NCBI GenBank assembly: GCA_002245135.1
Contig: NGBS01001185.1
Location: 62,001-126,000, forward strand
DNA: 64,000 nucleotides
Direction of reading: 5' to 3'
From: Proteromonas lacertae
Taxonomy: Eukaryota; Sar; Bigyra; Opalinata; Proteromonadidae
A program made the translations under genes and the position numbers. The notes under the pieces were generated by a model. The model saw only the letters and a program-made list of their open reading frames with translations, searched no databases and was not told the origin of the DNA. Positions 35,992 through 64,000 of this stretch are shown here, piece by piece; position 1 is the stretch's first letter, and the number at the start of each line of letters is the position of its first letter.

Positions 35992-38937
35992 TCAATTAGC
36001 TTCTTGCAATCTTTTATATTCTTTGTAGTTTGTAATTATTACTTCAAATTTGATGGTGATTGTTTTTGATTTATATTTTGCTAATGAAAAATAAACCAAA
36101 TTCACTATCCGATTATACTTTATATAATTGTAAATTGGATTGCTTTTATACTCTTCCATTTCTTGATGTGAATAATAAATCTATCATTTCTTTACATTTT
36201 TCATCATTATTTATTTTAAACAACTTTTCTTTGACCATTTCTTTTATTCTTTCTGATATAAATCTTAATGATTGGATTTTGTAATATCATCTTCAAATGT
36301 TTCATAGATTAATATATTGTCATAATCGCATTTCGCCATTGAAGATACATTAATTCCTCTCATTATATCATCTACTGCACCAATGACTTTTATTTTGTCA
36401 TCTATTTCTGTTTCACCATATACTCTATTTCCTATTATGCCACCATAGTATTCGTAGTTTTTCCTATAACAAGTTACATCACTATTATATAAATCTAACC
36501 AATCTTCATTCTGTATTTTCTGATTGAATGTATAAATCTATATAACTTTTATTCTTCTTTTTTGAATCTATTTCAAGAACTGCCATTTTTCTCACATGTA
36601 AATCTAAATCATATTTATTCATAAAATATTTAGGATAATTATCATATAATTTATATTTAGGATTTTCCAGAATTATCACTTTTTCAATTTCTTCTTTTGT
36701 AAATGGAGGTATATACATTACAAGTGGACATCTTTTACTTTGAAATGCATTATAGTTTTCATCAGTTGGATCAGCTATTAATATTATCATTTTAGCATCT
36801 GGATAATCATCTTCTCCAATTACTTCTTCATTTGAAATAACTATATATGGTTGTTTACTAGTGATATATTGATGTGGTTCATTACTTATAATTATTATAT
36901 CAATATCTGAATTGTGTTGTTGAATAAAATCTATTATTACATCTGATAATATTGATTTACCTATTCCACTATGACCAAATATTAAGTAGTTCTTTTGATA
37001 TGGATAATTTATATCAATAATATCTCCAGGACATATAATGTTAAATATCTTATAGTAACAATCTCGCATTAAATATACTGTACTTTTATTTCTTACATAT
37101 GCTTCTATTTTCACTCCTTCTGGTAGTTCATACAATGAAGGTGGAAGTTTATCATCATCATCATCTTCTTCTTCTTCATCATCATCATTTTTCATTTCTA
37201 CTACATCTACTTTTGATGTATCTTTTTCTGCACCTTCTAATCTTTTTATTAATACATCCTTATTTCCACCAACTTTTAATCCTTTACTATTCAATAACAT
37301 TTTTATCTCATCAACTGTCAACTTTGTGTAATCTACAACTATTTTATCAATATCTGGAGTAATATCTTGTTTTGCTTCATCTAATATACATAATCTATAA
37401 TTGTAATTATCTCCATTCTCACCATATTCCTATTATATAACATTATACATATATATAATTAATACTATCATGGATTCTAACATGCTCTTTTCATCTTCTT
37501 CAAATATCTCATCTCTACATATTATTCTATAAAATACTCCTTCTAGAATAAAGTCAAAATAATTATTTTCATCCAATATAAAATAAAGAAAATGTTTTGC
37601 ACCATCTGGATAATATATTGACTTTTCTTTCTTTGAATTATACTGGAATCAGCATCTTTCTTGTTTATATCAGTTTGCATAACTAATTCATATGATATAA
37701 TATGTTTTATTGCTGATCTCCTCATTTCATTATCATCATTCATAGATCTAAGTTTATTTATTAGTATACCATATTCAGTATTATTTCTAGGAGGATAGAA
37801 TTTGCATGAAACATAATTTTCAACATATTTTGATATAAATTTCAAATGCCGTTTTGGCTTATATATTCTTTCTTTTACAATCTTATCATCTACTTCTTCT
37901 AAATCATATTTTAATATGATATTTGATAATGCTGTTTCTATCAAATAATCTTTACTGTTATAATGCTCTAAAAATTCATTATAACCTTCTGTTCCTACCA
38001 CACTATCTATCAGTTGTTTATAATAACTCCAATAATCTCTTCCATAATTCATTTCATATAAATAACTGAAGTATATTAATCTGGGAATATTTCCATATCT
38101 TTCACAAACATCTTTAAATTCATTACTTCTAACATTAACACTACCCAAACCAACACAATTCTCAAACCATTTCTGAACTTCTTCAAATTCAAATGATTCA
38201 AAATATAATTTAACAGTATTTTTATACTCATCATTATTACTTTTCTCTGGAGAACTTATGGAGATAACTGTGTTATCTTTAAAATCGTTATTATAGGTAT
38301 CAACTATTACTATTGCTTTTCTAATATAAGAAGTACTAACATTTTCAATTTTTATAAGATTATAACCATTTCTATTTTTTTCTTTTTCTAATTTATATAT
38401 TTTTGTTCTTGATGGATCTCCATTTCTCTTGCCTTTATAAACATATACACCACCTGGGTATTTTGTTTCCCAATCATCACTATTCTTTAATTTGTATAGT
38501 AAATAATATATAAACGAAGTCTTACCAATACCTGGTTGACCTGTTATTACTATTTTCCTATTTTTTTTAATAAGTCCATGTATATATCCCCACATTATTC
38601 CATAACTCTCTCTGATGTAAATCTTCTTCAAGGGGAATTGGAATACATCAACATCAGTATTTCTAAAATCTAAATAATCAACATTTATATTACTTCCAGT
38701 AGTATAAATTACACTCATATTGTTGATGATCTTTACAAAACTGTCACCTTTCGCAACAACATAAAATTGAGAAACAATTACACATTCTCTATCATTTGTC
38801 TTTCTTCTTTTGGAAATATTATTACTATTATCACTTACTTTTCTCTTCTCTGTATAATTTCTTTCAACTCTACTTTCACATCTACCTCCACCTCTGCCAC
38901 TACCTTTAGCTTTACTAGTTTTTGATTTTTGAACCAT
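35992..38937 (-). CDS. Crinkler/RHS-type double P-loop ATPase with SAP motif, several frame breaks
   Basis: The ATG at 38937 starts a basic N-terminus with nuclear-localisation-like clusters (EKRKV, KRRK). The first ATPase domain has FQFPLKKIYIRESYG, Walker A GQPGIGKTSFIYYLL, a Walker-B-like IRKAIVIVDTYNN, ISSPEKS and YGNIPRLIYF; this order is typical of Crinkler (CRN) and trypanosome RHS proteins. A helical region follows, then a SAP-like motif (LTVDEIKMLLNSKGLKVGG), an acidic stretch and a second P-loop domain (FGHSGIGKSILSDVI, AKMIILIAD, CPLVMYIPPFTKEEIEKV). An intron is at 37430-37465. Frames change near 37640 (one base missing), 36515 (one extra), 36285 (one missing) and 36105 (one extra); translation stays sensible on both sides. 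Ends with TGA at 35992. Likely nuclear; molecular role unknown. Confidence 0.7.
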
Positions 38938-39187
38938 ATAATTGCTTAAAGACTATTAAGCGAGATATTAAAGAAAATAGAAAATCAATCAAATCAAATC
39001 AAGCCTATTTTAGCCAATCAAATGACAGAAGTAGAATAATTTTGATGTTTAGTTTTCTACTTATCTAAAAAGAGATAAAGTTTTATATAATTAGAACTAA
39101 CGTTTAATTTTTCATTTTTCAAAGATTATTTCTTATTTTCATAACACACACATTTACATACATACATATATATAATCATTGTTACAT

Positions 39188-42100
39188 TTATTCTACTTCC
39201 ATTAAATTCTCTTTCAACTTTTCTTCTTCATTCATCCTCTTCAGCTTCTCTTCTTCCAATCTCAATATATTTACTTCATCATATACACTAAATATTTCAT
39301 TTCTTTTACTTGGATCAGAATAATGACTCTGTAATAAATACATAAATCTCATAATTGAACTATTAAATTCATTTTCATTTTCAATTTCTTCCATTGAGTT
39401 ATTTTTCATAAATGAACTAGAGGAATAATTCAATTGATTATTCAGATTTAATCCACTACTACTACTACTATATAATATATAATAATAATAATAATAATAT
39501 ACAATTTGGCCATTTCTAGATTGATTTTCATATTATGTTCTTCTTCAATTTTACTTCGCCAAATTCCTTCGCAAATATCAACACTTGCTCTAGACCATTG
39601 TAATTCTGCTTCCTTTAAACCTTTCTCAGCTATTGCATAAACAGAATTTGGATCATCTTTATATCGAATATTATATAATTTAGAGTTATTAAATATTCGA
39701 TATAAATCATTTATAAAATCATTATAATTCAAATATTCTTTTTTATCAATCTTTTTACGAATATCAACTAAGCAAATTGGAATACCAACTACGGATAAAT
39801 AATCTACGTACTTTTTTAAATCAATTTCTTCTTGAAATATACCCCATCTTTGATCTTTAAATGCTTTATATACATTCTTTAAAATTGGATATTTCACTGT
39901 TGTTGCTTGATTTATTTCAATTTCTCTTCTTCGAAGTGATTCTATTGCTTTTTCAGTATCTTCAAAATAAACAATCTTCAATTCTTCAAAATATCGTTTT
40001 AAATGCATCATTTGCTGTTTTCTTTGTTTTGTTTTTTCTTCATTTGCTCCTTCAAAATTTTCAATATTCCAATCGAAGAATTCGATTATATCATTTAAGA
40101 ATGTGTTATAATCATTGTCATATTCTCCTTTGTCAAGTTTGTTACCTAATTCGTTGAAGTGTATTTCTTCATTTAGTCTTTTCTATACAATAAAAATAGA
40201 CAATAAAAATAAGCAATAAGCAATATATATATACACTTATATAAAGTGGTATTCCAAATCCTTTCATCTTTATATATTCATGATTATATATCTTATTATA
40301 ACATTCTTCACATATCTTTCGCTTTCTAATAATCTCCTTCTCTTTTTCACTTAATTTCCTCTTTGTAGTAGTAGTAGTTGTTGTTGTTGCTATAGATCCA
40401 GTACCAGTAGTTGATTTCTTATTATTACCTAATGAATGAATAATGTCTGGAATAGGCTTGCCTTCATATCGAGCAACTTCTGTTTCAAATTTGATTTTTA
40501 ATCGATTTGCTGCTTCTATTATATGTTTGTTATCTTTATCTTTATTGAATTTAAAGGCATTATTAAATACTAACCTTACATCATCTATAAATTCACGAAA
40601 TACCAAATACTGATGTCTGTTGTATTTTTCAATAATTGTCCCAAAATCCATAGGCTTGGAAATGACTCGAGTATATTCTTTCCAACTTGCTAAACTGTAA
40701 CTAAATGGTATATAATCTTTATATTCATATTTCAAAATTTTTATTTTTTCAATTATAAATTTTAAATCCGTTTCTTGAGGTTTTTCTGTTAAGTAATTTG
40801 GATGATGGTTGATATATTCTTCTTCTATTTTCTTAAATTCAGTTTTGAGTGTATTTGCTGCTCTTATTAAATTTTCTTTTTCTGGACTGTTCATTGCTGT
40901 TTGATAGGTAATTGCATTATCAGCGATTAAGTAAATATCTCTACTAAAATCACTAAAAGATTTGTAATTCTTTATGGATGTCTATATATATAATTAGATG
41001 GAAAAATAACAATATATATATAAATACAGTAATATTTGGAAAACTAATAGGTCTTTTCACATAATTTGTATATTGAGCATATGATTTCAATACCTTTATT
41101 GGAGTTTTAAAAGCATTATAAACAGATGCTTCATAAGTAGAAGTCTTTATTATATTTAATATTTTATCACATTCATCGTGAGGTAATTGTGAATCTCTAT
41201 AGTTTAAAATCGTCTTTCTTTTTTTATTCAAACTAAAAATATCACTACTTTCATCGAATTTAGGTGGAATTAATCGTTTATGACTTGAATTTTTAGATGC
41301 AACAGATAATGTTGAAGATGGCATAATATTCGATTTAATGACAGATGAAGCAGCAGTAACGGCTTTGTAGGTTGCGTTGGATAGTTTATATTTGTCTGGT
41401 TCACGGAAGTGAAGGTATAATTCATCAATTTCTTTTAATTGATCAGTTGCTCGTTGAATCCATATCTTTGATTCCAGTGTTTTTTTATCTTGTGAAAAAT
41501 ATTTGATACTGTTTTGAAACACTCTTTTATATTCAGCAATAAACTCATCGATTAGCTTGTATTTGTTGAATACTAATTTATACTATTTAAATAAATAAAG
41601 ACATAAATGAAAATGAATTAAAAAATTGAAAGAAAATGAAAAAAATAAAAATTAAAAAATGAATATCATATAATATACTGTTATTTCTTCAAATACAATT
41701 GGTCTTTTAATAACTTCTTTATAATTCGTCAATAGATCTAATCCCTGTTTATACATATAAGGATCTAACAATGATTTATTATCATATTTTTTATTATATA
41801 ATATTTCAATCCAATCAAAACACACGAATTTATCTTTGAAATATTCTGCTTTTAATACTTCAGAAGCTTCATCTTCAACTTTTTGTAAAAATGTAATAGC
41901 ATATCTTCTGAGCTTAGAAGTATCTGTAGATATAACTGTATTGAAGTATAAACAGTTGTAACAAATTAATCTCAAATCTTTTAAGAAACCATCTATCATT
42001 TCATACTCATTATAGTTTAATTTACACTATTTTTTATAATGATAATTAATATAATATACTGAGATGGAGTGTAAACTAACTGGATGTTTGACTTGCTTAT

Positions 42101-42740
42101 GATATGCTTCATTACTCTTAGGGACTATAAAACTGAAGTTTTTACTAAAATTTCTATCACTATAAAGCACTTGCATAATGGATAAACATTTTAATTTGTC
42201 TTCTAAAGGAATTGAAGGCTTCTAAAAGAATGAGTAACAATTAACAATTATACAAGTATGTTACTATGATATCCTATCTCCTTAAAACATTTTAAACAAT
42301 ATTTATCAAAGCTATCCAAGCAATTCATGAAATATGTCTTCATTGCTTCATTACGATCAGTAGACGAGTCAGAAAAAGACCTGATGCCAATTTTGTATAT
42401 TCTTCGGATTTTCATTATTAGTTCATCAATATTTCCGAAAAGACATTTGTCAAGTGAGTCTCCCAGCCTTATCTAGTCCATTTTATAATTCAATATAAAA
42501 TACTTTGATTTGTTCGTTGTTTAACATGTGATATCTCATCCTCCCACTATCAGTTTCTTCTTTTATTGCTCTCCATTGAAAGAATCTTTTCATTTCATCT
42601 GATTTCCAATCACATTGATCAAATATCTGCTTCATAATAGCATAATTTGATTCCTGCATTTGAAAAAGAAAAAAAATGAATGAAGACTCAAGCTTAACAG
42701 GATTTGGCTTGAAGTTTTTATAATAAACAACAATCAGCAT
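39188..42740 (-). CDS. Protein with five tandem bromodomains
   Basis: Eight exons (42504-42740, 42254-42472, 42060-42221, 41679-42026, 41028-41582, 40235-40981, 39503-40182, 39188-39467) with introns of 31-96 nt give 1075 residues in one frame. Five bromodomain-like bundles can be read: (1) NEAYHKQVKHPVSLHSI then DLRLICYNCLYFN; (2) NYKEVIKRPIVFEEIT; (3) YTNYVKRPISFPNIT then YLIADNAITYQ; (4) WKEYTRVISKPMDFGTI then VRLVFNNAFKFN; (5) VDYLSVVGIPICLVDI then DLYRIFNNSKLYN. The acetyl-lysine-anchoring Asn looks present in 1, 4 and perhaps 3 and 5. Bromodomains bind acetylated histones; five in tandem recall polybromo of SWI/SNF (RSC/PBAF) complexes, but no BAH or HMG domain is seen. The second M at 42659 is an alternative start. 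Confidence 0.8.
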
Positions 42741-42812
42741 ATATCCTTAAAAATGTATTAAACAACATAGATATCTTAATTAACTTATAATTATATATAA
42801 TTTTTTCACATT

Positions 42813-43880
42813 TTAGTACGATTCACTTTTCTTAATTTTCTGTCCAAACACATCAACAGATGTAGAATGTGATACTCCTTCCGCATTAGAATTCATCCTA
42901 GTAATCATCATCACATCATCAACATCCATCGACTTCATATTTCTCTCACTATACGCTGATTTATTCAAACATTTTGTAATACTTGAATTATACCTTGACA
43001 TAAAGGAAACAACAGCTATTTGATTTTCTTTACTTATATCATTCGTCAATGGCTCAAAATCATATTTATAAGGATGAGATTCTCCACCGAATATAATTTT
43101 ACAATATTCAATAAACGATGTCTTTGGAAACTTGCCATTATGGTTTTTTCTATATGTTTCTATCGTTGGTACCATTTGTGCCCTTGTTCTTATCACTTTC
43201 CAGTCATTTCTACTATAAACTGTGTTTAAAAACACATCTCTGAAATAAGTTATTGGTTGAAGAAAAGTTGCATTTTCTGAACAATACTGTAAGTATTCTT
43301 GTAATGTCCAATAGCCTTTGTGATTGGAATCATATACTTGAAAGAGTGTAAGTAACACTGAGGTAATATCATCGAAATGAAATAATCGAAGTAATTCTGT
43401 TACATTTTCTATTGTTATACGGTTTGTGTCTACGTCAGTGACAAGAATTAAAGCAACTATACATTAAGAAATTAAAGAAATTTATACATGTGTATAACAC
43501 TTCAGTGTCTACCTTTGAAAAAAATAAACACATCTGTAGGAATGAATTCCAATCAGTTTCTTTACCAAATATTCTATTTAACACCTGTGGGAAAGAAAAT
43601 GAACATAATGAACATTTCCACGCTCTTAATGTAATTTTGGATGTGCTATGTAAATATTACAGTTATTATAATAACTATTATACTGGTTTGACAAAACCAA
43701 AAAGGATTGTTGAAACTTTTTGATATCTTTCCTGTTTACTATTTTTATATCATTTATTTATATCATACAATATGATATTCTCACTAAATAAAGAGTATCT
43801 TCTAGAAGATGGAATTCCTTTTGTATGGCGTAAGCTCCACTACGTTTTTCTATATCAGCGTTATCAAAAGCGTCACTCAT
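42813..43880 (-). CDS. EF-hand protein
   Basis: Four exons (43769-43880, 43684-43738, 43488-43645, 42813-43456) with introns of 30, 38 and 31 nt give 322 residues. A canonical calcium loop (DSNHKGYWTLQE) follows a helix (ITSVLLTLFQVY), and a paired helix region precedes it (TDVDTNRITIENVTELL), so this is an EF-hand pair near the middle. The C-terminal part (KYDFEPLTNDISKENQ, SMDVDDVMMITRMN) is polar. No membrane segment or signal peptide. Calcium binding by at least one hand is likely; target unknown. Lies between the bromodomain gene and the small LIN37-like gene, all on the minus strand. Confidence 0.75.
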
Positions 43881-43994
43881 TATTTAAATTTACACCAGAT
43901 ATTGTGATTCAAATTTAAAACGAATAAAACTTGAAAAAAACTTGTGAAGAAAAATTCTTTTAATTTTAAAATTAAACAAATTAGATTAGAATTA

Positions 43995-44650: not shown

Positions 44651-44917
44651 TGCAAACAAACAAATTAAATATTTGAATTCTGGGTTATTTTTTGGATCAT
44701 TTTTCAATGAAATATAAAATGATAAATAAATCTCTTAAATGAGTGCTAGAGAGTTTAAATAAGTAATGAATCTAAATTTGACAAAGGGCAAAGAAACATT
44801 AACACTAAATTGAAAGGTGAAAATAATGACAATAATGATGTAAATTACACATTCTACTTTACACTTCTCACTTTATTGAGTATATTATTGAAATTGATAT
44901 ATTTTCTAAGATAAAGA

Positions 44918-46051: not shown

Positions 46052-49000
46052 ATGAATTTGTTTATCATATTCATTGTACTTTGTGGTATAAATTATAATT
46101 TATATTATTGTGTTAGGTATTTCTGCTTCAGCTGATCACCATATCAACAGCAACACTAATCTCATCAATTTAGTTCCAAAAGATGTAGAAGGACAAATGG
46201 TTGAAAACAAACCAGTTGGTAATATAGATTCGATTGATGGTGTTTATTCTCAAAATCAAAATGTAATTTGCAGTAATTTAGAAAAATCAGTTACACTTCA
46301 TTACGAGACTGCTACTACTGTAGGTAAATTAGCTATGAAATATAATGAAGGTGTAAAATTTGAACCATTTAGCTTATATGATGGTGAAAAGAAGATTGAC
46401 TTATCAGAACTGTTTCGATCAAAAGTAGTAAATGGTACACAAACTGTGACACTATGTCTTTCCGAAAGTATTTATGAAATTCGACGAAATGACGAGATAA
46501 AATCAAAAGTCGAATTTGGTATAGTTAAAGTAGAAATGAATGGTAAAATAGTATCAACCGTAAATATTAGTGAGTTAGGAAGTAACAAAGGTATAAAAGT
46601 AAGTATTAGCGAAGATCGAGAACTGAAGTCTTCTGTAAGAAAATTAGCAAATGTTATTGTATTACCAGAACAAAGCGTATGGGAATATTCAGCTACTCCA
46701 CAAAGTGATAATTCCTGGAGTAATATTGTAAATGATTGGAATAAATTTGTTCCACCTTCATTTCCTGTGAAAACAACAACTACTACATATTATCGATCAA
46801 AATTTACACTTCCAGATATAGCTGGTACAAATTCACCCATATTGAAAGTGAAATACAGAGATGGTTTGATAGTGTTTGTAAATGGAATAGAAATCTTCAG
46901 AAAGAATATGCCATTAGGAGAAATAAACTCAGAAATCAAAGCAAGCAAATCATTTGAATCATTAACTGAATCAACAATCTCAATTCCTCAATCAATAATC
47001 AATAGTTTTGATAATTTCATTGGAATAGAAATTCATAAAAGTAAATTAAGTCCATTGTCTCAAAATGATGAATTTTCAGCCACAATAGAAACTCGAGCTA
47101 GAGGATTATACTCACAAACAACAGCTGATAATGTGGATATAACTGTAATATCACAAGCTGGTATTGCACCTAATATAGGAAATGCTTTAACTAATATGTT
47201 TTCAATATCAACAACTCATTGTAGTGTAATATTAGGTAATAAGGATGATATAAAAGACGAATCAAAATGGTTTCCAATGAATTATGATTTTACATTTAGA
47301 AATCATGTAGCTAAATATATGAATCAATTTAGAATAAGTGGTTGTTCTAATAATTTCAAAAACCATCCAAGGGATGTAAAAATATATGGTTCAGTTGATA
47401 GTGACAATATAGAATGGATATTGCTTTATGAAAATACAAATTTGGGATTATCAGAAATGGAATGTAGTGATATTTCAACATATGCATTAAATCCAATTAA
47501 TAAAGCATTTGAAAGTTACAGATTAGAAGTAATATCTAATAATGATTATTTTTTAGATTGGGGACATTATATTTCATTCAAATTTTTTGTATTAGATGAA
47601 AAACCACTATCTATATGTGAAGCTAATGAGAATTATCCGTCAACTAATATTGGAATGACTTCAATTATTTATTGTGGAAGTGGATATAAAGAAGTGAGAT
47701 GTGGAAATGATGGAAATTTTGAAGCTGAAGTTGATCATGAATGTAATAATGATTTAATCAAAAGTGAATGGCAATATACTGATTCTACTCCATCATCACC
47801 ACATTGGAATAATGAATATATAGAAGGAGAAAGTGAATGGATGAAAATATCTTTACCATTTCCTGATTTCACATCTTCAATTAGATATTATCGAAATTAT
47901 TTTACAATCAATGATATATTAGTAAGTGGATCACCCAAGTTAAAGATTACATATAAAGATGGATTAAAGATTTATATAAATGGAAATGAAATATTCAGAA
48001 GAAATTTCAATGGAGATGTAATAATTCCATTTGAAACAGCAACTGAAGAAACAATCTTAATTCCTTTACCTGTTTTATTAAATGGAAGAAATATAATAGG
48101 AATAGAAATTCATAAAAGCGATTCTTCTGTTTCTGATCCATTGATCATTTCATTAGAATATATGAAATTAACAATTAATACAGTAACAACATTAGATACA
48201 GTAAATGTGAATGAAATTGGTTTAATCTCTGAAAAAGGAAATGCTCCAGTTGATTATACTAATTTAGATAAAACATTTGCAATGGCAAGTGAAAGTACAA
48301 ATGATAATCCTGATTATTGTGGAATTACGTTAGTAAAAGGAGAAAAAGCCAATTATATGCCATTTTATATAACCTACAAATTCAATGGATATAATGCTTT
48401 TTATTTTAATGAGTTTAAGATAAGTGGATGTAGTAATAATTGGAATAATCGTCCAAAGAATATAAAAATATTAGGAGCAACAGATAAAGATCATCCAGTA
48501 TGGGAAGAACTATATTCAAATACTGATTTAGGATTAAAAGGTGGTGATGGAACTGAGCATTGCACTGAAGTTAAAACATTTTCATTGTTGAATGTAAGAA
48601 AATCTTATGAAAGTTATAGATTAGAAGTAGTTGATATAGCTGCTTATGATGTAAATCCATTTGCTCATTATATTCAATATCGATTATTTATTTTAAATTC
48701 AATTTCACTTCCTGTTTGTTATGCTTATGATGGATTTGACAAAGCTTTTGCTGGTACAAATGGCACAGCCAGTTGTGGAAATGGATCTAAAGCTTTTAAG
48801 ATAAGAAAATGTTTAGAAAATGGATTATGGGATGAAGTAATTGATGATTCAATGTGTAATGCAAAATGTTCAGTTACAGTATATGATCAACTTGTAGTAG
48901 CAAATCCTGGTGAATATGGTGAATTAACCTGTCCAAACAATCAAAATAAGAAATGGAAAGCATATTGTCCTCTTAGTATTCCAGTATCATATATTGATAT

Positions 49001-52000
49001 TGTTGATGAATGTGTTAGTATTACTTATACAGAGAATTATATTACTAAAAGTGGTAAAGCTTTAAGTATAACTCCAACAATATCTGAAAATCCACCAACA
49101 TTAACATTTAGCAAAGAAACTGGTCCTGATTTTATAACAGTAGAATCATCTACAGGTGTTGTAAGTGGAACAATTCCATCAGATGTTTTAGAAGGAAAAG
49201 AATATGAATTAATAATTCGTGTTCAACCAGTTGATGAAAGATTCACAATAAAGATCGAAATAAAAGAAGAATCAAATAATGATGAATTTTATAGATTAAT
49301 AACAACGAATAGTGAAACAGCTGAAATAACTAAATCATATATAATTGATATGAGTAAATGGAAAGTTCCCGAATCTTTATCATTTAAGACATTAACAACA
49401 GTTGGTGATTATACAGTGAAAATGAAGCATTATATAAAAGAAAATGAAAATAATGTATTGAGTTTATTTGGTTCAATAGAAAATCAAATAATTGAACATT
49501 TACATTTGATAATAGAATCTCATAATGGAAATAATGTAAATCCTTCACTTAAAACCACAGAAAATGGAATATTTTCAAAGATATCAAACAGTTATTTATA
49601 TGATATAGAATTGAAAGTAAATTGCAATATTGAAATGAATCAAAATGAAGATAAAACCTTTGGTTTATTGAGTAACTCAATGGAGAATATGATAATGATT
49701 CATGTAGGAATATATTTTGAAGGAAAGATATCAATAAATACTTTCACATATTCATCAACATTTGGCTTGATAAGTGGATTTATTAAAAATGGTGATGGAA
49801 AAGAAGTAAGTGGAATATTTGTGAAAGGAAATGAATATAGTTATACTCGTGGTAATAGTGGTCATCAATATAATGGTTTGATGTTTGGCTCATCTGAAAA
49901 TCTGATTATTTCATACAGTTATAGTGATGTTAATACTTTCAAAATTAATTCAGAAAGAGGCTTAAGTAGTAGTTTGACAGTAGCTCATGCAACATCAGCA
50001 TCCTCTTATTTGAAATTCTTTAGATGTTTTGCAATAGTAAGAGTAGTAGCTGATATTGAAGGCAATTTTTGGGCATTCTTTGGTCCATTTTTATGTCGAG
50101 GCAATATAGTTGAAACAGTTGATGAATGTTGGAGTGATATAAAAGTTGGTGTTTTAATTGGAGCAAGTGAATTAGTTGGTTTTAGAGGAATGTATGAGAA
50201 TAATGAAGTTAATGCGAATGTGATCTTATCTAATAGTTATATTCACTATCATTTTACTAAAAGCATTACACATAACGATGCAAAGATTTTTATGATGGCA
50301 AAATATACAAAAACAGGAAGTTCGTTGAATAATGTTTATTCTTCAATAACTTATGATGATGGAGTTACATTTGCATGTCAAATAAGAGATATTCAGGATG
50401 ATGAAGGTACACAAAATCCAAGTACTATTCATAATACCATCATACAACAAAGAAGTGGAATAAAAATCATAAGATCATTTTATAGTAAACAAATTGGATT
50501 AGTTGATGAAACATCTGATATAAAAGAAAAGCCATATAAATATTTGAATGGATTCTTTACAAAAGATAGGAAAATATATTATTCCACAATGCCAAGATAT
50601 GATGAAAACAGTAAAAGAATAATAGATGAATATGGAATATTAGAAAATGTTGATATATCATTAGATGAAAATTCATATCCACATTATAATAAAGTAAAAT
50701 CTGTTTGGTATAGAAATGAGATAAGTTTAAATCCAATATATAAAGATGATTTGAGAGATAGTTATAAATTATATTTGTTGCTGAAAGATATAAAAGATGA
50801 ATCTAAGAATGTAATAATATCATCATCTAGTGATTGTATTAATTCAGAAAGTATAAGTGTGAAAAGTTGGTCAACAAGTGAATCTTCAATTAAATCAATA
50901 AGTGAAAAAATAAATAAAGAGAGTTGTAGTATGAATTCTTATAAGAAAATAAGTTATGAAATAAGTGGAATAAGTACAGGAGAATCTGAGATAGTGGAAT
51001 TAGTGAATAAAGAAGTAACTCCATCCTATACAGTTAGTTACAAAGATTATGTCGAAGAGAACAGTGAATTTAATATGATATTTAGTTTACCTTATCCATC
51101 TGAAATAGTAGTAAGTGGAAGTGAAATAATTGTAATGAAATCGTTAGAAAATGGTGAAATATTTACCTCATGAATATGAATCAAAATTAGTGTTAAATGT
51201 AGGAAATGTTGAAAATGAAGTGAATGAGAAAGTGAATATTTGTGTAAAATCTCCTTTTGCCTATGGTGAAGAAAGTGGAAAATGTTTTGATTTGACAGTG
51301 AAAATTCAGACTGGAGATCCTAGTAAACCAACCACTTCTCCACCAACCACAGTAAAGCCAACAACACAAACACCAACAACCATTAAACCCACAACTCAAA
51401 CACCAACCACAGTAAAGCCAACAACACAAACACCAACAACCATTAAACCAACCACTGTTAAACCTACTACATTACCACCAGGAAATAATTTTTATGAAAT
51501 TATTACTCAAGATAAAGATGAAATTGTTCTTGATAAATCATATATAGTTGAAATGAAAGATTGGATAATTCCACCAATTGAGAATATAAAATTCACAAAA
51601 TTAATAGGAAAAGGTGATGAAACCAAGATAATATTAAGATTTGATACAAAGGTTGATGAAGTTAAAAAAATTCAATTATTTAATGATTTAGATGGCAAAG
51701 TTTTAGAACATCTTCATTTCGTAATAGAATCTTCACCATCTGAAAATACATTAAAATTAAACCCAAATGGAATATTTTCAAAGATATCAAACAGTTATTT
51801 ATATGATATAGAATTGAAAATAGATTACAATATTGAAATGAATCAAAATGAAGATAAAACTTTTGGTTTATTGAGTAACTCAATGGAGAATATGATAATG
51901 ATTCATGTAGGAATATATTTTGAAGGAAAAATATCAATAAATACAAATGACAGAACAATATTAGTATTTGGCTTAATAAGTGGAAGTATATCAAATGGTG

Positions 52001-55000
52001 ATGGAAAAGAAGTAAGTGGAATATTTGTGAAAGGAAATGAATATGAATTTTTATCAACTGCATCTACTGATCATACTATATATGAAGGTTTATTATTTGG
52101 TAATGCCATAGATTTAATAATATCTTACAGTTATAGTGATGTAAATAAAGTGAATATTAATAGCAACAATGGTATTAGCCACAGTCTCACAATCGCTCAT
52201 TCTACTGCTGAATCTACTTTCGTAAGATTGTTTAGATGTTTTGCAATAGTTCGAGAAATGGCAAATGTTGAATCCCAAGATTGGACATTCTTTGGTCCAT
52301 TTATTAGTAGAAGTAAAAATCCAGTTTATGTAGATGAATGTTTTAATGATATAAAATTTGGTATAATAAGTGGAAAAATGGATGTAGTTGGATTTAGAGG
52401 TCATTATGAAGATAATGGTGATAATGCAAAAGTAGAAATATCAAATAGTTATAGTAATTGGTTATTTACTGAATCCACTAAAGAATTATATCATGATTCA
52501 ATTGTTATAAATTGTATATCCAAATTTGCACATAGTAGTTCAACAATAAAGAATGTATATGTTTCAATAACAGTTAGTTCTGATGAAGTAACATTGGGTA
52601 AAGTAGTAAAAGTAGGTGAAGGAAGTGATATTATGATGAACAAAGCTTACATTCAAAGACCAGATAGAATTAATGTTAATGGAATTGGTTCAGTAGAAAT
52701 ACTTGATGAAACATCTGATATAAAAGAAAAGCCATATAAATATTTGAATGGATTCTTTACAAAAGATAGGAAAATATATTATTCCACAATGCCAAGATAT
52801 GATGAAAACAGTAAAAGAATAATAGATGAATATGGAATATTAGAAAATGTTGATATATCATTAGATGAAAATTCATATCCACATTATAATAAAGTAAAAT
52901 CTGTTTGGTATAGAAATGAGATAAGTTTAAATCCAATATATAAAGATGATTTGAGAGATAGTTATAAATTATATTTGTTGCTGAAAGATATAAAAGATGA
53001 ATCTAAGAATGTAATAATATCATCATCTAGTGATTGTATTAATTCAGAAAGTATAAGTGTGAAAAGTTGGTCAACAAGTGAATCTTCAATTAAATCAATA
53101 AGTGAAAAAATAAATAAAGAGAGTTGTAGTATGAATTCTTATAAGAAAATAAGTTATGAAATAAGTGGAATAAGTACAGGAGAATCTGAGATAGTGGAAT
53201 TAGTGAATAAAGAAGTAACTCCATCCTATACAGTTAGTTACAAAGATTATGTCGAAGAGAACAGTGAATTTAATATGATATTTAGTTTACCTTATCCATC
53301 TGAAATAGTAGTAAGTGGAAGTGAAATAATTGTAATGAAATCGTTAGAAAATGTGAAATATTTACCTCATGAATATGAATCAAAATTAGTGTTAAATGTA
53401 GGAAATGTTGAAAATGAAGTGAATGAGAAAGTGAATATTTGTGTAAAATCTCCTTTTGCCTATGGTGAAGAAAGTGGAAAATGTTTTGATTTGACAGTGA
53501 AAATTCAGACTGGAGATCCTAGTAAACCAACCACTTCTCCACCAACCACAGTAAAGCCAACAACACAAACACCAACAACCATTAAACCCACAACTCAAAC
53601 ACCAACCACAGTAAAGCCAACAACACAAACACCAACAACCATTAAACCAACCACTGTTAAACCTACTACATTACCACCAGGAAATAATTTTTATGAAATT
53701 ATTACTCAAGATAAAGATGAAATTGTTCTTGATAAATCATATATAGTTGAAATGAAAGATTGGATAATTCCACCAATTGAGAATATAAAATTCACAAAAT
53801 TAATAGGAAAAGGTGATGAAACCAAGATAATATTAAGATTTGATACAAAGGTTGATGAAGTTAAAAAAATTCAATTATTTAATGATTTAGATGGCAAAGT
53901 TTTAGAACATCTTCATTTCGTAATAGAATCTTCACCATCTGAAAATACATTAAAATTAAACCCAAATGGAATATTTTCAAAGATATCAAACAGTTATTTA
54001 TATGATATAGAATTGAAAATAGATTACAATATTGAAATGAATCAAAATGAAGATAAAACTTTTGGTTTATTGAGTAACTCAATGGAGAATATGATAATGA
54101 TTCATGTAGGAATATATTTTGAAGGAAAAATATCAATAAATACAAATGACAGAACAATATTAGTATTTGGCTTAATAAGTGGAAGTATATCAAATGGTGA
54201 TGGAAAAGAAGTAAGTGGAATATTTGTGAAAGGAAATGAATATGAATTTTTATCAACTGCATCTACTGATCATACTATATATGAAGGTTTATTATTTGGT
54301 AATGCCATAGATTTAATAATATCTTACAGTTATAGTGATGTAAATAAAGTGAATATTAATAGCAACAATGGTATTAGCCACAGTCTCACAATCGCTCATT
54401 CTACTGCTGAATCTACTTTCGTAAGATTGTTTAGATGTTTTGCAATAGTTCGAGAAATGGCAAATGTTGAATCCCAAGATTGGACATTCTTTGGTCCATT
54501 TATTAGTAGAAGTAAAAATCCAGTTTATGTAGATGAATGTTTTAATGATATAAAATTTGGTATAATAAGTGGAAAAATGGATGTAGTTGGATTTAGAGGT
54601 CATTATGAAGATAATGGTGATAATGCAAAAGTAGAAATATCAAATAGTTATAGTAATTGGTTATTTACTGAATCCACTAAAGAATTATATCATGATTCAA
54701 TTGTTATAAATTGTATATCCAAATTTGCACATAGTAGTTCAACAATAAAGAATGTATATGTTTCAATAACAGTTAGTTCTGATGAAGTAACATTGGGTAA
54801 AGTAGTAAAAGTAGGTGAAGGAAGTGATATTATGATGAACAAAGCTTACATTCAAAGACCAGATAGAATTAATGTTAATGGAATTGGTTCAGTAGAAATA
54901 CTTGATGAAACATCTGATATAAAAGAAAAGCCATATAAATATTTGAATGGATTCTTTACAAAAGATAGGAAAATATATTATTCCACAATGCCAAGATATG

Positions 55001-57291
55001 ATGAAAACAGTAAAAGAATAATAGATGAATATGGAATATTAGAAAATGTTGATATATCATTAGATGAAAATTCATATCCACATTATAATAAAGTAAAATC
55101 TGTTTGGTATAGAAATGAGATAAGTTTAAATCCAATATATAAAGATGATTTGAGAGATAGTTATAAATTATATTTGTTGCTGAAAGATATAAAAGATGAA
55201 TCTAAGAATGTAATAATATCATCATCTAGTGATTGTATTAATTCAGAAAGTATAAGTGTGAAAAGTTGGTCAACAAGTGAATCTTCAATTAAATCAATAA
55301 GTGAAAAAATAAATAAAGAGAGTTGTAGTATGAATTCTTATAAGAAAATAAGTTATGAAATAAGTGGAATAAGTACAGGAGAATCTGAGATAGTGGAATT
55401 AGTGAATAAAGAAGTAACTCCATCCTATACAGTTAGTTACAAAGATTATGTCGAAGAGAACAGTGAATTTAATATGATATTTAGTTTACCTTATCCATCT
55501 GAAATAGTAGTAAGTGGAAGTGAAATAATTGTAATGAAATCGTTAGAAAATGTGAAATATTTACCTCATGAATATGAATCAAAATTAGTGTTAAATGTAG
55601 GAAATGTTGAAAATGAAGTGAATGATAAAGTGAATATTTGTGTAAAATCTCCATTTGCCTATGGTGAAGAAAGTGGAAAATGTTTTGATTTGACAGTGAA
55701 AATTCAGACTGGAGATCCTAGTAAACCAACCACTTCTCCACCAACCACTGTTAAACCAACAACACAAACACCAACCACAGTAAAGCCAACCACTCAAACA
55801 CCAACAACCATTAAACCCACAACTCAAACACCAACCACTGTTAAACCCACAACTCAAACACCAACCACTGTTAAACCCACAACACAAACACCAACAACTG
55901 TAAAACCAACCACTCAAACACCTACTACTGTAAAACCAACCACTCAAACACCTACTACTGTTAAACCAACAACAATGAAACCAACAACAAATCAGCCAAC
56001 AACTGTCATTCCAACTACTGAATCTCCATCTACTACAACAATATATGAAACTGGAACAATAGAAACATCAATTCCAACTACTTTAATACCAACAACTGTA
56101 ATTCCAACAACACCAAAACCGATTGAAAGAATATCAATTGAAATAAGACTTTCTAATATTGCAAATACAACCACAACACCTGAATTAAATGAAAATGATA
56201 AAAACATATTAAAAGACTCAATAATTGAAATCTATAAGAATGGTGGTATAACATTAAGAAAAGAAGATATTGAAATAATTGTGAATAATCGACGAATGTT
56301 ATTGCGAGGTTTAGAAAATGATATGAAAATCGAAGTAATAGTAACAGTTCCAGAAGAATCAACAAAAACTGTAATTCTTGAAATTGCAAACGGATTAATG
56401 AAAGACAATTCCAAAGAATTGAATGAAGAAATCAAAACCAAAGCTGAATCTGTAGAAGATTCAATATTCAAAGAAATTGAAGTTGAAGTAACAAAAGTAG
56501 AAGAAAAGAATTATCCAACAGCAAAACCTAGTATTGGAGGAGATGGAGATAAATCTGAAAGTGATGGATTACCGTTAGGTGCATTGATTGGAATAATCGC
56601 AGGTGGAGTAGTAGTATTGGTGTTATTAATAGTTGGATTTATGTTATGTCGAAGTCGAAAATCTGAATCTCATCCATCCAAATCTAAATCCAAACCAGCA
56701 GCAAAACCTAAAAAGCCAATAGCTGGAAAAGGAGTGAAAGCTAGTGGTAAATCTGATCCAGCTGGTGCAAATATAGAATTACCAAAAATAGTAGAAGAAA
56801 AGAAAGAAGAAATAAAGAAAGAAGAAGTAAAGAAAGAAGAAGAAAAGCCAAAAGAAGAAGAAAAACCAAAAGATGAAGAAAAACCAAAAGATGAAATAAA
56901 GCCAAAAGAAGAAAAGAAAGAAGAAGTAAAGAAAGAAGAAGTAAAACCAAAAGAAGAAGAAAAACCAAAAGAAGAAAAGAAAGAAGAAGAAATAAAGCCA
57001 AAAGATGAAAAGAAAGAAGAAGAAGTAAAACCAAAAGAAGAAGTAAAGAAAGAAGAAGAAAAACCAAAAGAAGAAATAAAGCCAAAAGAAGAAGAAAAGA
57101 AAGAAGTGAAACCACATCCAAGAAAAACAGGAAGTAAAGCTAATCGAAAGAGAAGTGGAAGTGGTTCAAGTTATTCTTCAAGTTACAGTGGAAGTTATTC
57201 ATCCAGTTATAGTGGAAGTGAAAGTGAAAGTGAAAAACCAAAAGAAGTGAAAACAACTCCACCTGCTATTCCCGAAAGAAAAGAAGCATAA
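46052..57291 (+). CDS. Giant type I surface protein with jelly-roll, discoidin-like and beta-helix blocks
   Basis: The ATG at 46052 (MNLFIIFIVLCGISASA, signal peptide) is followed by a 31-nt intron (46086-46116). One long frame runs to 51173 and another from 51151 to 57291; one extra G at about 51152 separates them, as the repeat copies at 53350 and 55549 show. Without it the protein has 3735 residues. In order: two jelly-roll domains (KVKYRDGLIVFVNGIEIFR; KITYKDGLKIYINGNEIFR), each followed by a discoidin-like domain and a Cys knot; a cadherin/Ig-like domain (STGVVSGTIPSDV); three long beta-helix-type blocks (FGLISGSISNGDG, ISYSYSDVN) separated by Thr/Pro stalks; a SEA-like region; a membrane helix near residue 3490 (LIGIIAGGVVVLVLLIVGFM); and a Lys/Glu-rich tail ending in Ser/Tyr/Gly repeats. 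Likely an adhesin; ligand unknown. Confidence 0.85.
47595..48858 (+). repeat. Inverted-repeat arm B, 1264 bp
   Basis: Partner of 24671-25934 in opposite orientation, equal in length and almost identical. It spans the end of the first Cys knot, the second jelly-roll, the second discoidin-like domain and the second Cys knot, and ends at TCAATGTGTA. Confidence 0.85.
50505..55740 (+). repeat. 2199-bp tandem duplication inside the surface gene
   Basis: The unit repeats at 2199 bp (733 codons) with no differences that I can see between the second and third copies; the first-to-second distance is 2200 because of one extra G near 51152. Each full unit is a Thr/Pro stalk plus one beta-helix block. 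The first block upstream (about 49270-50500) is a diverged older copy, which marks where the recent duplication began. Confidence 0.95.
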
Positions 57292-57370
57292 AATATATTA
57301 TCATACTTCACTCATGAATTTTTATTGTTTTATTGGTTTTGAACTAGAATATTTTAATTCTATATTATAT

Positions 57371-58377
57371 TCAGTGTTGTATTTTTCGGTCAAAAAATAT
57401 AGGTTTACCTATAGGTCAAAACCTATATCTTTAGCTTGACCTTTACCTTCCTTATACTAACTATTAGTTGACCTCCTATTGAGCATGAGTTAAGAAGCAT
57501 ATAATCTAACCATATATACAAAATTAATGTTTTATACATCATCTTTCAAATATCAAATTTGACAGTCGGTTGATTCACTTTTTATATTACTATTATTTTG
57601 ATCTATTTCTCAATGATGACTCACAATAACATATTATTAACATAATATTAAATTAATTATAGAATAAGAAAAAAGAAAAGAAAAAAACATCAAGCTTGAT
57701 GGTTTGACTAAGCAAATCTTTATTTTTTAAGATTTAGATCATTTAGATGTATAATTACTCAATATTTATAAGACTTTATAATATATGAAACTATAGGGAT
57801 ATCACATTACCTCCTATCGCATCAAAAGAGTTGTGCATTTATTCAATTGCTGTATGTTAGAGAAGTAACATTTTAACTACTCCAAAATGTTTTGGAAAAA
57901 CATGTTAAAAATCAAAGATACTGATTTATATTGCTCATTTATTATACATCTAAATATTTCATCAGAACATATGGAAGAGAAATCATTAATATCCAGAAAT
58001 AGAGATTTATTATTATAATTACATTAATATTTGTTTTTTAGAGATAGTAATCAATATAAATTAATCATCAAAATAACAAGTTGTTTATAAATATGTTAAA
58101 TATCACTATTGAGTAGTTTGTAGATGAATTTTAATATATCAGAATAGATATTTTTACAATTTCAACCAATCTTATTCTAACTATAGTAACTAAAGTAAAA
58201 CAAGAAGCAGGAATAATTTTTTATATAGTATGATAGTTTGTATTAAACAAATGTTACTCAGTAAGTAATTAAAATAGATTTTAACAAAATAATGCTCGAG
58301 GTTTGACTGACCAACGGTCAAAGCTAGATTATAGGTTTTACCTATAACCTATAGGTTACCTATTTATACAACCCTGA
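57371..58377. mobile_element. Probable non-autonomous DNA transposon, 1007 bp
   Basis: The ends are inverted: left starts TCAGTGTTGTAT, right ends ATACAACCCTGA (reverse complement TCAGGGTTGTAT). Similarity continues inward for about 60-70 bp with the palindrome-like CCTATAGG and a shared GCTT(T)GACC. The same six bases, TTATAT, flank both sides (57365-57370 and 58378-58383), as expected of a target-site duplication. The interior is AT-rich without a coding frame, so no transposase is encoded. The superfamily cannot be set from one copy. Confidence 0.7.
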
Positions 58378-58450
58378 TTATATTCATCAAAAAAAAAATA
58401 GTAAATAAAAACCCTAACAGAAATAGGTAATTTCCAGTTTAAACACATTA

Positions 58451-59760
58451 TCAAATGAATTTTCTACCTATCTTTTCAGTTATAAATAATTGCAGTATTG
58501 GATCACTACTGAAATCAATTGCTTCTCTTTTTTCTAATTCCTTCTAAAATCGAACATTAAACTTCTCCATTCCTTGAATCTTTGATAAACCAATTATTTC
58601 ATTCCAACTTTTATCACTTAACCATTTTGGTTCTTTTGTTACTGGATTGGATTCTTTTAATGTCAAAGCAGTATTACTTGTTAATAAATATTTAAAGGCA
58701 GCTGGATCTAATTCATTATTGATTAACAATATCTTTGTACATAATAAGAACGAGATTAATAACTTATCTTTTTCAAATAAAGATCGACATACATTCTCAT
58801 CTAATATATAAGTGAATGTATTATCCAAACTATTCAATCGATCTTTGATTTTATTAGTTCTTACAGCTTTATCAATTGATAATAAGAATAGATTAATATA
58901 CCAATCCAATGAATATTGATACATTGGCTCAATACCAGTTAAATCAGAAATACAGAAGATTAAAGCTTATGCTCTTTCTGCTACTGGAATATAACTTGTT
59001 CGAACATGGGATATTTGTTGTTGTGTTGCTTTGGCACTCTTTACATCTACCATAATCTCATTGGAGGTTTGTTTGGATTTGGCTAAAGTATCAATCAACT
59101 TTTCATCTTCTAATATATATAACCTTCAGATGAAGCTAATAAATGTAAAATTTGATCTTCAATATCTTTCAATGTCTTTTTATATTCGGCATCTTTCATT
59201 AACAATTCGACTCATCTTCCTTCTAATTCTCTTTGTTCTTTTCCTACTAATATACCTAATAATTGATCTTGTAAACCTTCTTGAGTTGTCATAAAGTTCA
59301 ATAAATTCACTTTTACACAAGTTTCAGGTGGATAATGTGGATTTTTAATCATATCATTATATATAATCGGAATTTTTCATCATAATTTACTATATTATCA
59401 TCTAACGATTAGCTTGTCCTTGAGGATCTATCATTAATGGCTATCTATCTGAATTTCTTAACATTATGCCATTCTCTTATGGCTATTGTATATCCTAATA
59501 TAATAACTAATGAATAACTTGTTAACTAGCTCAGTAATCAGTTCGTCGACTAGTTTTTCTAAATCTTCTTTCTTTTTTATTATGTTTTCTAATTCTTCTT
59601 ATAAGGGTTGTACTTGATCAACTAATTCTTTCAATTCACCTCGTTTAGTGGTTAATTGACCTTCGGCTTTCACTTTTGTAGTTTGAGCTTTTTCTAAGGT
59701 TTATCTCTTTGGTACTATTACTTCCTTAATATCATAATATCTCTTGTTATTATTATAAAT
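58451..59760 (-). pseudogene. Dynein heavy chain pseudogene fragment
   Basis: Minus-strand translation matches the dynein heavy chain from the second half of the stalk coiled coil into the AAA5/AAA6 region. Landmarks in order: VIVPKR, coiled coil (TLEKAQTTKVKAEGQL, KKKEDLEKLVDELIT), PLMIDPQGQANR, KNPHYPPETCVKVNLLNF, TTQEGLQDQLLG, EDEKLIDTLAKSK, SYIPVAERA, then MYQYSLDWYINLFLLSI, NVCRSLFEKDKLL and onward. In-frame stops interrupt it at several sites, including both Trp positions flanking PLMIDPQGQANR (TAG), and frames shift in the AAA5 start, where 80-90 family residues are missing. The longest open piece is 58544-58924. It is clearly dead. It ends about 70 bp from the transposon-like element. 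Confidence 0.85.
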
Positions 59761-59934
59761 AGTTATTTAAACAAATCATCTGATTATGAAACTATTTACA
59801 ATATCATAAATCCAATAATGTAACACATTGATTGACTAATTATTTCTTTAAAATTCTTTATATTTATAATACATAAACAAAATGAATGATTTTAAAGAGA
59901 TTTGATTGGATGGCTTGATTGATTCAAATTTATT

Positions 59935-62900
59935 ATGAATGAAAATCAGACAGCAAAGCTTAATAAAAAATACCATAGACCAAAGAATGAAGAGTTAAAA
60001 ATGGATGAGGGTGAAACAGTTGGTGAAAATCATCGTCAAGTTGAAAATAATCAACAGAATAAGATAGAAACTACGTAAACATAGATTATAATATTGTGAA
60101 TAGGTTAAATCCGAGTAAGAGAAAATTTGACGAGATAAATTCACCTCCTCTTGAAGGTGTTGGCACGAAGAGGAAGTAAATATAAAATATTATATAGTTT
60201 ATAGGGAAGAGGTAAAAAAGATAAAACTTTCTGTAATTGCTCCTAATGGTAGTGAAATTAATCCTAGTAACAAAACAAAGTAAGGCTAAAACATTTTATT
60301 ATTTATAGACAATTAGATCATGATGGTAATAATTACCCACAAACAAAAATAAAACATGGTGTAGAAATAATTAACGATAGTACATTAGAGGTAAATGCTG
60401 GTAGAAATAAAATAGGTGGTGATTTATTGTCAAACAATACAAGTGTTGGATTATTGTCAAACAATACAAGTGTTGGATTAATGTCAAACAATACAAGTGT
60501 TGGATTAATGTCAAACAATACAAGTGTTGGATTAATGTCAAGCAATACAAGTGTTGGATTAATGTCAAGCAATACAAATGGTGGATTAATGTCAAGCAAT
60601 ACAAATGGTGGATTAATGTCAAACAATACAAATATTGGATTAATGTCAAGCAATACAAATGGTGGATTAATGTCAAACAATACAAATATTGGATTAATGT
60701 CAAGCAATATAAATGGTGGATTAATGTCAAACAATACAAATGGTGGATTAATGTCAAACAATATAAATGGTGGATTAATGTCAAACAATACAAATGGTGG
60801 ATTAATGTCAAACAATACAAATGGTGGATCATTTTCGAGAAATACAAATATTCCAATTTCTTTTCCATTAGCTGGTGTTGATATAAATAAAGAAGATGCT
60901 TTCATCAGAATAGTAAATTCTTTAAAATTAAATGTAGATAATGGTATAGAGTTGTTAGAGTTTGATGAATCTGTAAATGTATTTCAATTCCCCAGAAAGA
61001 GAATTCTTATTAGAGAATGTTATAAACAAATGTTTAGACATATTTGTTTATTATTATCAAATATTCCTGAGCAGAATATAACAATAGAAGGACAACCAGG
61101 TATAGGAAAGACTTCCTTCATTTATGCATTATTATACTTTTTAAAAACAAATTTATGTAAAGAATATACTGAAGAGCAGAAGAATAACTTAAAGATTCAA
61201 GGATATACACATGAAATGTCTGTCATGGATGAAATAATAAGAAAATATGATAAAGAAAATGAACCAAGAATAAGAAAATTGAATGAAGAAATCGAAAATT
61301 TAACAAAAGAAAACAATAAAAAGAATATAAATGAAAATGATATTACAGAAGTAAACAATATTTGTGAAGATTTGAAAAGTATAACAGAAGATACATTTGG
61401 ATATGATAAATTCATTAATGAGAATAAAACTGAATGTGATAACATTATGAATAGTTTGAATAACGATAACAATAGAGTTATAAAACATTGTAATGGTAAG
61501 ATTATACAAAAATTGAACGAAATTATAGAATTATTATTACCATCAGGAAGACTTAGTAAATTCCTTTCTTCAAAAGATGTTACCATCGATGTAAAAAAAA
61601 TAGATGAATATTGTTGTTACATTATGAATAGAAATGATAGACTTAATACATTGAAAATAGAACAATACAAGGATATGACATTGGTTGGATATGCCTTGAT
61701 AAGTATAATATTAGATAAATTAAATGAGATTAATAAAATATTATTAGAAAAAGAAGTAAATCAATACAATGTTTATAAACTACGAAAAGAAATAATGATA
61801 ATTGATGAACTTAATAATACAAAGAATGACATGAAAAGAAAATTACAAAATAATCAAGACAGGATTAATGAAATAAAAAAGTCAAAGCATAATAAAAAAA
61901 TGAATATTATGGAAAGACTAGAATATATTATAAATAGGTATAGTAGATTAAGTGAAGAGCAAAAAGCAGAAGTAGATAAAGTAAAGTATGAATCACTTAT
62001 AAATATTGAAAGAAAGATTGGTGAATTAGAAACTAGTGAAATAGAATTGAAAATTGGATTTAATCATTACATATTTGAAGGTAGGTGGAGAAATAGACCA
62101 ATATATGTGATGAAAGGGAAAAAGAATGGATCTTATAAGGATGAAAGAATTTATGAATTTAAATATGATGAGAGTAAAAATGATTACATTCTAGTGAAAC
62201 GTGAAATGACAATTGAAGATATTGTAAATATAACAGAATCAATAATAATAGTTGATACAATTAATTATGAGCAAATTGGGATAAGAAATGCAATTATCTC
62301 AATTAGTTCACCAGATAGTGATAATAATGATTGTTATAATGGTAGTAAAGAATTATATTTTGATTCATTAGATAATGAAGAAATAGCAGAGTGGTTTAAA
62401 GAATGTACAGATGTTAATGTTGGTAATAATATTAGAATTGATGATTATGTTAAAAGTGAAGAATTTGAAAGTATTCGTGATAGATATGGTAGTATCCCCA
62501 GACAGATTTATTTTGATTATTTATATAAAGAAAATTATGATGGTAAAGATTATTAAAAATATTATCAACAATTAATGAATAGTGTAGTTGGTACAACAGG
62601 ATTTAATGAATTTCTGAATCTATATTCAAATAGAGAGAATTTAAAAAGTAAACCATTATCCAATATATTATTAAAATATGATATGAAATTAGAATGGGAT
62701 GATGATTTAAGAGATTATATATTAAAACCAAAAAAGAATTTAAAATTCATATCTGATGATATTGAAAAATATATTATTTCCAGATTATATCCACCAAATA
62801 ATGAGATAGAGTATAAGAGTATAAGAAATAGTTATACACCTCTAAATAAGAAACCTATCAATGAAAAAACTGAAAATGATAAAAATATGGAAAAGATATG

Positions 62901-64000
62901 TCTAAAACAAATAATATCATACAAATTGAGTAAAGGAGATATTCTATTAACTAAAGGAGATTCCAATTTCGAGTATGATACTGATAAACAATTACCAGGT
63001 CATTTTCCTGTTGATGGTTTACATTCTGTTTATCATATATTGGATGAAAATAATGTGTTTGATTTAATAATGAATGGAGTGTTTATAAAAATAGTATTAA
63101 ATGATGAGACATTAGATGATGAAACAAAAATTAAGCAATCAATATATATTTATAGTTTAATAGCAATACAGTTTAAAGAAAAGTGGTAGATTTCAATATG
63201 CTATAATAAGAAACGAAGACAGAATTGAATCTTATCATCATATTACTATTTCATCTCCAAAAGATCCACCACCACAACCATCACCAACAATAGAAGATTT
63301 AGAAGTTGATGATAATAGTAATTCTGAATTGGAAGAATTAATGAAAAGATATAATATAAATGTGGGAAATATAAAACTTCCATTTCCATTATTTCATATC
63401 AAAAAAGAAGATGAAAATGAAATAGAAATATTTGCAAATAATAATGAATTGTTTTTGATGAGAAAATGTTATAATGAGATGTTGAGAATAATTGATGAAG
63501 GTTTTAAGAACAATAAAAATAGATCAAAACCACATCAAAAGACATATTTAATGCTTGGCAATAAAGGAATTGGTAAAACAGTATTAGCAGATGTTATAAT
63601 TGAACATATTAAAAAGATTTATGAAGGAAGAATAAATATAATATATAAATATCAAAATAAAAATCAAACATATGAAAAATATGTTCATACAAGTGAATAT
63701 ACAAATGAATATATTGTTGTTGGTAATGGAGCAGTAATTGGTGAAGATGATTATCCTGATGCTAAAATGATAATATTATTAGCTAATGGATCTAAAAAGG
63801 AGTATAAAACATTTCAAAGTAAAAGATGTCCACTTGTGATGTATATACCTCCATTTTCAAAAGAAGAAATAGAAAAAGTAATCCTTATCCAACATCCAAA
63901 ATACTCTAAAAATTATGAACAACATTATCTGAAGTTGAAAAATCTTGCAAATGCAGAAGAAATAAAGAAATGTGATGTTGAAAGTTATGTCAATAATATA
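59935..64000 (+). CDS. Crinkler/RHS-type double P-loop ATPase with coiled-coil insert, partial
   Basis: The ATG at 59935 and three introns of exactly 29 nt (60075-60103, 60176-60204, 60280-60308) lead into basic, nuclear-localisation-like sequence (SKRKFDEIN, GTKRK), a 9-residue repeat array and the first ATPase domain: VFQFPRKRILIRECY, Walker A GQPGIGKTSFIYALL, then about 300 residues of coiled coil, then YVMKGKKNG, a Walker-B-like SIIIVDTINYE, ISSPDS and YGSIPRQIYF. It parallels the minus gene at 35992-38937 but has the extra coiled coil. A TAA at 62554-62556 falls exactly where the paralogue has Trp (GKDY-stop-KYYQQL against GRDYWSYYKQL). Near 63150-63190 the frame changes at the site where the paralogue has an intron. 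The second P-loop domain (LMLGNKGIGKTVLADVI, CPLVMYIPPFSKEEIEKV) runs off the right edge. Confidence 0.7.
60424..60828 (+). repeat. 27-bp coding minisatellite, 15 copies
   Basis: Fifteen in-frame 27-bp units encode LMSNNTSVG and variants (LMSSNTNGG, LMSNNTNIG, LMSNNINGG). Variants are arranged in blocks, with the SVG form at the start and NGG/NIG forms later, which suggests stepwise expansion. The array sits between the basic N-terminus and the first P-loop domain. Confidence 0.95.

Follow-up and report, generated by a model that had tools for sequence, protein, structure and literature searches.

Two Disrupted Genes of Proteromonas lacertae Point to a Large Eukaryotic Family with a Doubled ATP-Binding Module

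Introduction

Nucleoside triphosphatase (NTPase)-nucleases of the Crinkler-RHS (CR) type are familiar mainly from plant pathogens, which use them as effectors, and from trypanosomes, whose RHS arrays are a puzzle. What are the two genes with paired P-loop domains that lie on opposite strands of a 64,000-nucleotide stretch (hereafter, the window) of the Proteromonas lacertae genome (contig NGBS01001185.1, positions 62,001 to 126,000)? The window, with 22–33% GC, short introns, and bromodomain and kinase frames, is part of a 50.2 Mb assembly of 1181 contigs. The eEF1A encoded in this assembly (locus L060) gives a good alignment with eEF1A sequences of the PDB and, by eye, is without the insertion typical of opisthokonts. 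An earlier note, made from the sequence of the window, had taken the genes for a two-member family of double P-loop ATPases with Crinkler/RHS signatures. We argue that they are decayed members of a large eukaryotic family with a doubled ATP-binding module, an explanation that, taken whole, holds about half of our confidence.

Two P-Loop Domains in One Protein

The tandem layout recurs across the genome. The counts that follow are lower bounds, as only the best candidates were scored, and some near-identical places are probably alleles (e.g., L036 and L037, 99.8% identical across 2.9 kb). The second half of the genes returned at least 132 matches and the first half at least 103, which merge into at least 128 and 91 places, respectively. 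At 89 of the 91 first-domain places, a second-domain place lies downstream on the same strand, 117–1400 bp away; a same-strand partner lies upstream at three of the 91, and none is found nearby on the opposite strand. Pairing in this order exceeds chance. A layout shared by many paralogues, which the earlier note had named as support, is borne out, and the family is far larger than the two members proposed.

The halves also prove to be physically joined. Both P-loops occupy a single open frame of 1196–1767 codons in four of 20 fetched paralogous regions, and both are present in P0001, a 1041-residue protein with 32% identity, which was the sole outside relative among 7990 scored candidates; none was found among 7997 and 4557 candidates in further protein searches. 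A scripted scan of 30 distinct sites found a GT...TAG of 33–38 nt exactly between an ESIK-like exon end and the next exon at 16 of them; six others show GT...TAG past a wrong anchor, seven are continuous without an intron and one lacks the TAG. The one-frame copies, P0001 and the shared short intron place both halves in a single protein, to the extent that genomic DNA can tell. The same three observations reject the alternative of separate genes; the halves, for which the earlier note had considered separate transcripts, read as exons of one gene.

Two Disrupted Copies in the Window

The minus-strand gene runs from 38937 down to approximately 36170, and the plus-strand gene from approximately 60607 to beyond position 64000. 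Read frame by frame on both strands, they carry their two P-loop domains and accompanying parts in the same order, as first described, but neither is a single open frame.

In the minus copy, the first exon (37466–38937, minus strand) encodes a basic N-terminus with a KRRK stretch (recognized by eye), NTPase 1 (GQPGIGKT) and the segment following it; the open reading frame (ORF) at 37543–38952 (−) holds this P-loop together with the VVGTEGYNEFL segment. NTPase 1 passes the Pfam cut-off for NTPase_1 (25.0 bits vs. 23.9) and falls just under that for nSTAND3 (26.2 bits vs. 27.2). The break at 37430–37465 (−) is, by its sequence and position, an intron and no lesion: a 36-nt GT...AG, identified by eye, matches in position the 33–38 nt introns of the paralogues. 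The second exon (36506–37429, −) is likewise an ORF, inside which lie a SAP motif, an acidic linker and P-loop 2 (GHSGIGKS, GEDDY and MYIPPFTKEEIEKV). The SAP-like motif between the two P-loop domains had been correctly spotted: at 37226–37333 (−), which corresponds to C405:99226-99333 in the whole-genome SAP search, Pfam PF02037 matches with E 9.5e-10 and 38.3 bits against a cut-off of 23.9. The remainder of the second exon, from the YGGIIG segment onward, was traced by tblastn with an open paralogue exon through two further frames at 36170–36537 (−). With open paralogue exons as tblastn queries, three frame changes were located in this copy, at approximately 37650–37672, 36512–36522 and 36268–36280.

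The plus copy is spread over frames 60271–62556, 62557–63189 and 63164–64000 (+). Its first exon (60607–63150, +; tblastn with a paralogue exon) encodes P-loop 1 (GQPGIGKT), a long insert ahead of the Walker B strand and the following segment; an in-frame TAA interrupts the conserved domain at 62554–62556, and inspection by eye found no GT at the expected 5′ splice site near 63150. Several stops fall in the 5′ part, from 59935 to 60270. The basic N-terminus once thought common to both genes does not extend to this copy, in which the N-terminal part contains a 27-nt tandem repeat of 15.3 copies (60417–60829, +). The second exon (63164–64000, +) encodes P-loop domain 2 and continues beyond the window, where the frame stops after approximately 355 nt (locus L059) without a nuclease-like domain. 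A 5S rRNA gene (Rfam RF00001, 92.7 bits) lies just downstream, at L059 832–950 (−), approximately 630 nt beyond the window end.

Both copies look like pseudogenes because of the frame changes in the minus copy and the TAA, the absent GT and the 5′ stops in the plus copy. The frame breaks may instead reflect local assembly error, but neighboring frames of 1687 and 2046 codons stay open.

A Duplicated NTPase Module

The second P-loop domain had been described as different from the first. Comparison of hhalign profiles built from 17 first and 12 second domains leads to another conclusion: the two match with 97.1% probability (E 5.2e-11) in an alignment of 244 columns that begins ahead of Walker A and extends into the segment behind the NTPase. 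With everything through Walker A trimmed, the match still stands at 80.3% (E 1.4e-5). Controls gave 0.5% for the reversed second domain, 1.6% for the first domain against the nuclease-like domain described below, 0.2% for the post-Walker A portion of the first domain compared with the N-terminal part and at most 1.0% for all 20 column shuffles; matches between alignments A3 and A11 and between A8 and A9 were not used as controls because these alignments overlap in sequence. The trimmed comparison and the controls reject the idea that the halves are alike through a shared Walker A alone. By their profiles, the two NTPase domains are homologous, an internal duplication of one module.

The two copies of the module have diverged in their motifs. 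Walker A and the Walker B sequence IIVDT show little or no variation among the 17 first domains. Among the 12 second domains, the expected Walker B aspartate is missing in five (one has E); all 12 keep a GED motif and, within Walker A, the lysine as well as the first and last glycine. In neither window copy does the second domain reach the Pfam cut-off of any P-loop family. Structural models of the second-domain core, themselves weak, weakly favor the P-loop-type fold that the earlier note had expected.

The missing aspartates, together with Walker A motifs that lack the final S/T (ending in K in L057 and in Y in P0001), all read by eye, could mean that NTPase 2 is a degenerate pseudo-ATPase scaffold; the functional unit would then be a CR-like protein with one working ATPase, next to which the duplicate is inert. 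We consider this rather unlikely: the GED motif and the Walker A glycines and lysine, constant in every second domain compared, are not required of an inert copy.

The commonest profile for first domains is nSTAND3 (16 of 17 and 14 of 18 scanned sequences at E ≤ 0.01; best E 7.5e-9, in one member of alignment A12). This raises the possibility that the proteins are immune or cell-death STAND receptors, in which the N-terminus would sense, two nSTAND3-like NTPases would switch and the nuclease-like end would execute within the own cell, as in Avs-type proteins and NLRs. A receptor would also fit the NLR chains and the Avs5 chain that VIA lists for NTPase 2, the weak mad8 matches that PADLOC gives for five of six proteins and the variability of the N-termini. 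Against it, the printed nSTAND3 scores lie below the curated cut-off with one exception (L016, 28.0 vs. 27.2; nine others of the same set fall just under), and Pfam scans of nine long frames and eight N-termini listed no LRR, WD40 or TPR repeat sensor. To our knowledge, two NTPases per chain are also atypical of STANDs. We regard a receptor as unlikely. The VIA lists for NTPase 2 hold no CR structure and are uninformative on that point; NCBIfam and PADLOC searches returned weak P-loop matches only, and searches of PDB sequences with family sequences gave nothing convincing.

Variable Ends and a Nuclease-Like Domain

Seven paralogues align past the second NTPase into a further domain with the motif LYE..FPDxD..QxT. 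A genome search with this domain gave 182 matches; among the matches listed, 69 reach the core. Of these, 62 follow a second NTPase at a distance of 145–637 nt, none precedes one and seven have no second NTPase listed. The domain is present at no fewer than 62 of the 128 second-domain places. Neither this domain nor the disruption of the two window copies figures in the earlier note. It has no Pfam or PDB sequence match, and its motif suggests a PD-(D/E)XK-like fold.

The N-termini vary. A conserved region (YHFYYEI..GIRFGY..VYEVIYDM) is shared by eight longer paralogues (alignment A11), in which it appears SPRY-like by eye. Searches with these eight N-termini found no convincing Pfam family, no CR header (Ubl with LXLFLAK or other) and no PDB match.

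By eye, 14 of the 30 genome-wide SAP matches fall at nine loci of the family, and five of these loci carry two SAPs; the motif looks like a trait of one clade.

Relation to CR, RHS and STAND Proteins

CR proteins, according to PMC5289972, are built from header, P-loop NTPase, helix-turn-helix and restriction endonuclease (REase) parts; NTPase with REase makes up slightly above one quarter of their C-termini, and the review ascribes to the NTPase a probable role in regulating the nuclease. With these proteins the family has in common a variable N-terminal part, a P-loop NTPase (NTPase_1 above cut-off in the window copy, and nSTAND3 at E ≤ 0.01 in most first domains), a nuclease-like end and a large, fast-changing multigene family. 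The candidate REase is placed after the NTPase by motif and position, without a Pfam or PDB match, and differs from CR nucleases in being unmatched to any known REase family in the searches made. The family further departs from CR proteins in duplicating the NTPase within the chain and in bearing SAP in one clade.

The same review groups Trypanosoma cruzi RHS with Crinklers (PMC5289972), and PMC7563717 describes these RHS proteins as nuclear, mosaic and mostly pseudogenes. Large size, mosaicism and dead copies are shared with RHS (PF07999, PMC7563717), but the family has two NTPases and introns. In the profile scans, RHSP (PF07999) was reached by one of 34 distinct first domains, at 19.9 bits against a cut-off of 25 (E 5.4e-4), the other 33 having no match at E ≤ 0.01; a six-frame genome search with RHSP, run without a positive control, gave no match; and the Crinkler profile matched nowhere in the scans made. 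Of the CRN/RHS signature claimed at the outset, a distant RHS hint is supported, in one paralogue. Because the RHSP match is single and below cut-off, the family is called CR-like rather than a tested member: it resembles the CR NTPase-nuclease layout, and the case for membership is weak. With nSTAND3 and other STAND/AAA NTPases (PF20720) it shares the commonest first-domain profile and the general fold class of the second-domain core; the tandem pair in one chain and, in the scans made, the lack of a repeat sensor set it apart.

Spread and Divergence of the Family

Could the family be, or once have been, a mobile element? Its genes may be a transposon's ATPase-nuclease genes, with copies spread by transposition, a notion encouraged by the dispersal of at least 128 second-domain places across 104 contigs, by the dead copies and by the view, given in PMC5289972, that CR NTPase-REase proteins descend from prokaryotic proteins linked with transposable elements. 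Against such an origin, blastn comparison of 37 of 59 family loci over stretches of up to 6.5 kb, which did not include a search for terminal repeats or target-site duplications, found no sharp shared element ends: similarity breaks inside genes, which are mosaics, and close copies stay similar as far as the fetched sequence reaches. The conserved intron and the selection estimates likewise speak against a mobile element, which we judge very unlikely. Thirteen pairs, partly non-independent and one including a dead window copy, were tested for omega; 11 of the 12 informative pairs fall at 0.45–0.70 and one at 0.98, and a near-identical pair was uninformative. These values suggest weak purifying selection with fast protein change.

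Other Features of the Window

At 46092–57291 (+), the two very long overlapping frames mentioned above contain 300-nt units that occur three times, 2.2 kb apart and 92–100% identical, as well as threonine/proline-rich repeats; they look like a repetitive surface glycoprotein. A frame at 22818–26201 (−) resembles them by eye. Two frames at 40169–41582 (−) each have a Pfam bromodomain match and perhaps form one polybromo-like gene.

Possible Function and Significance

Returning to the CR-like reading, an intact protein would comprise a variable N-terminus, NTPase 1 with a helical/wing-like segment, one or two SAP motifs in one clade, NTPase 2 with its own helical/wing-like segment and, often, the PD-(D/E)XK-like domain. 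Driven by ATP, the paired NTPases could form a switch or a clamp on DNA, in which NTPase 1, with canonical Walker A and B, would turn over ATP and NTPase 2, with its variable Walker B aspartate and constant GED, would more likely be regulatory; SAP would add grip on DNA and the C-terminal domain would cut. ATP use, localization and cutting by these proteins are all predictions drawn from sequence. The family may serve in genetic conflict, either directed at foreign or selfish DNA or through effectors that are released; its many copies, mosaic ends, dead members and rapidly changing proteins fit such a role. As part of the same explanation, the proposal that this doubled-NTPase family works in a CR-like manner and targets DNA in conflicts stands, in our estimate, evenly balanced between right and wrong.

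The literature searched, whose coverage does not extend to the key survey (Zhang et al., 2016), yielded no description of a tandem-NTPase CR family. Tentatively, and with doubt outweighing belief, we propose an undescribed eukaryotic DNA-acting family whose CR/STAND-type NTPase became doubled within a single chain. The outcome would be a built-in pair of ATPases, of which the second has a constant GED and a non-canonical Walker B, coupled to a nuclease; the family would have been amplified to approximately a hundred loci and would form a diversifying arsenal for conflict. Such doubling of the NTPase would demonstrate that this module is able to evolve into an intramolecular ATPase pair, and the family would offer a natural system for asking what the NTPase does for the nuclease.
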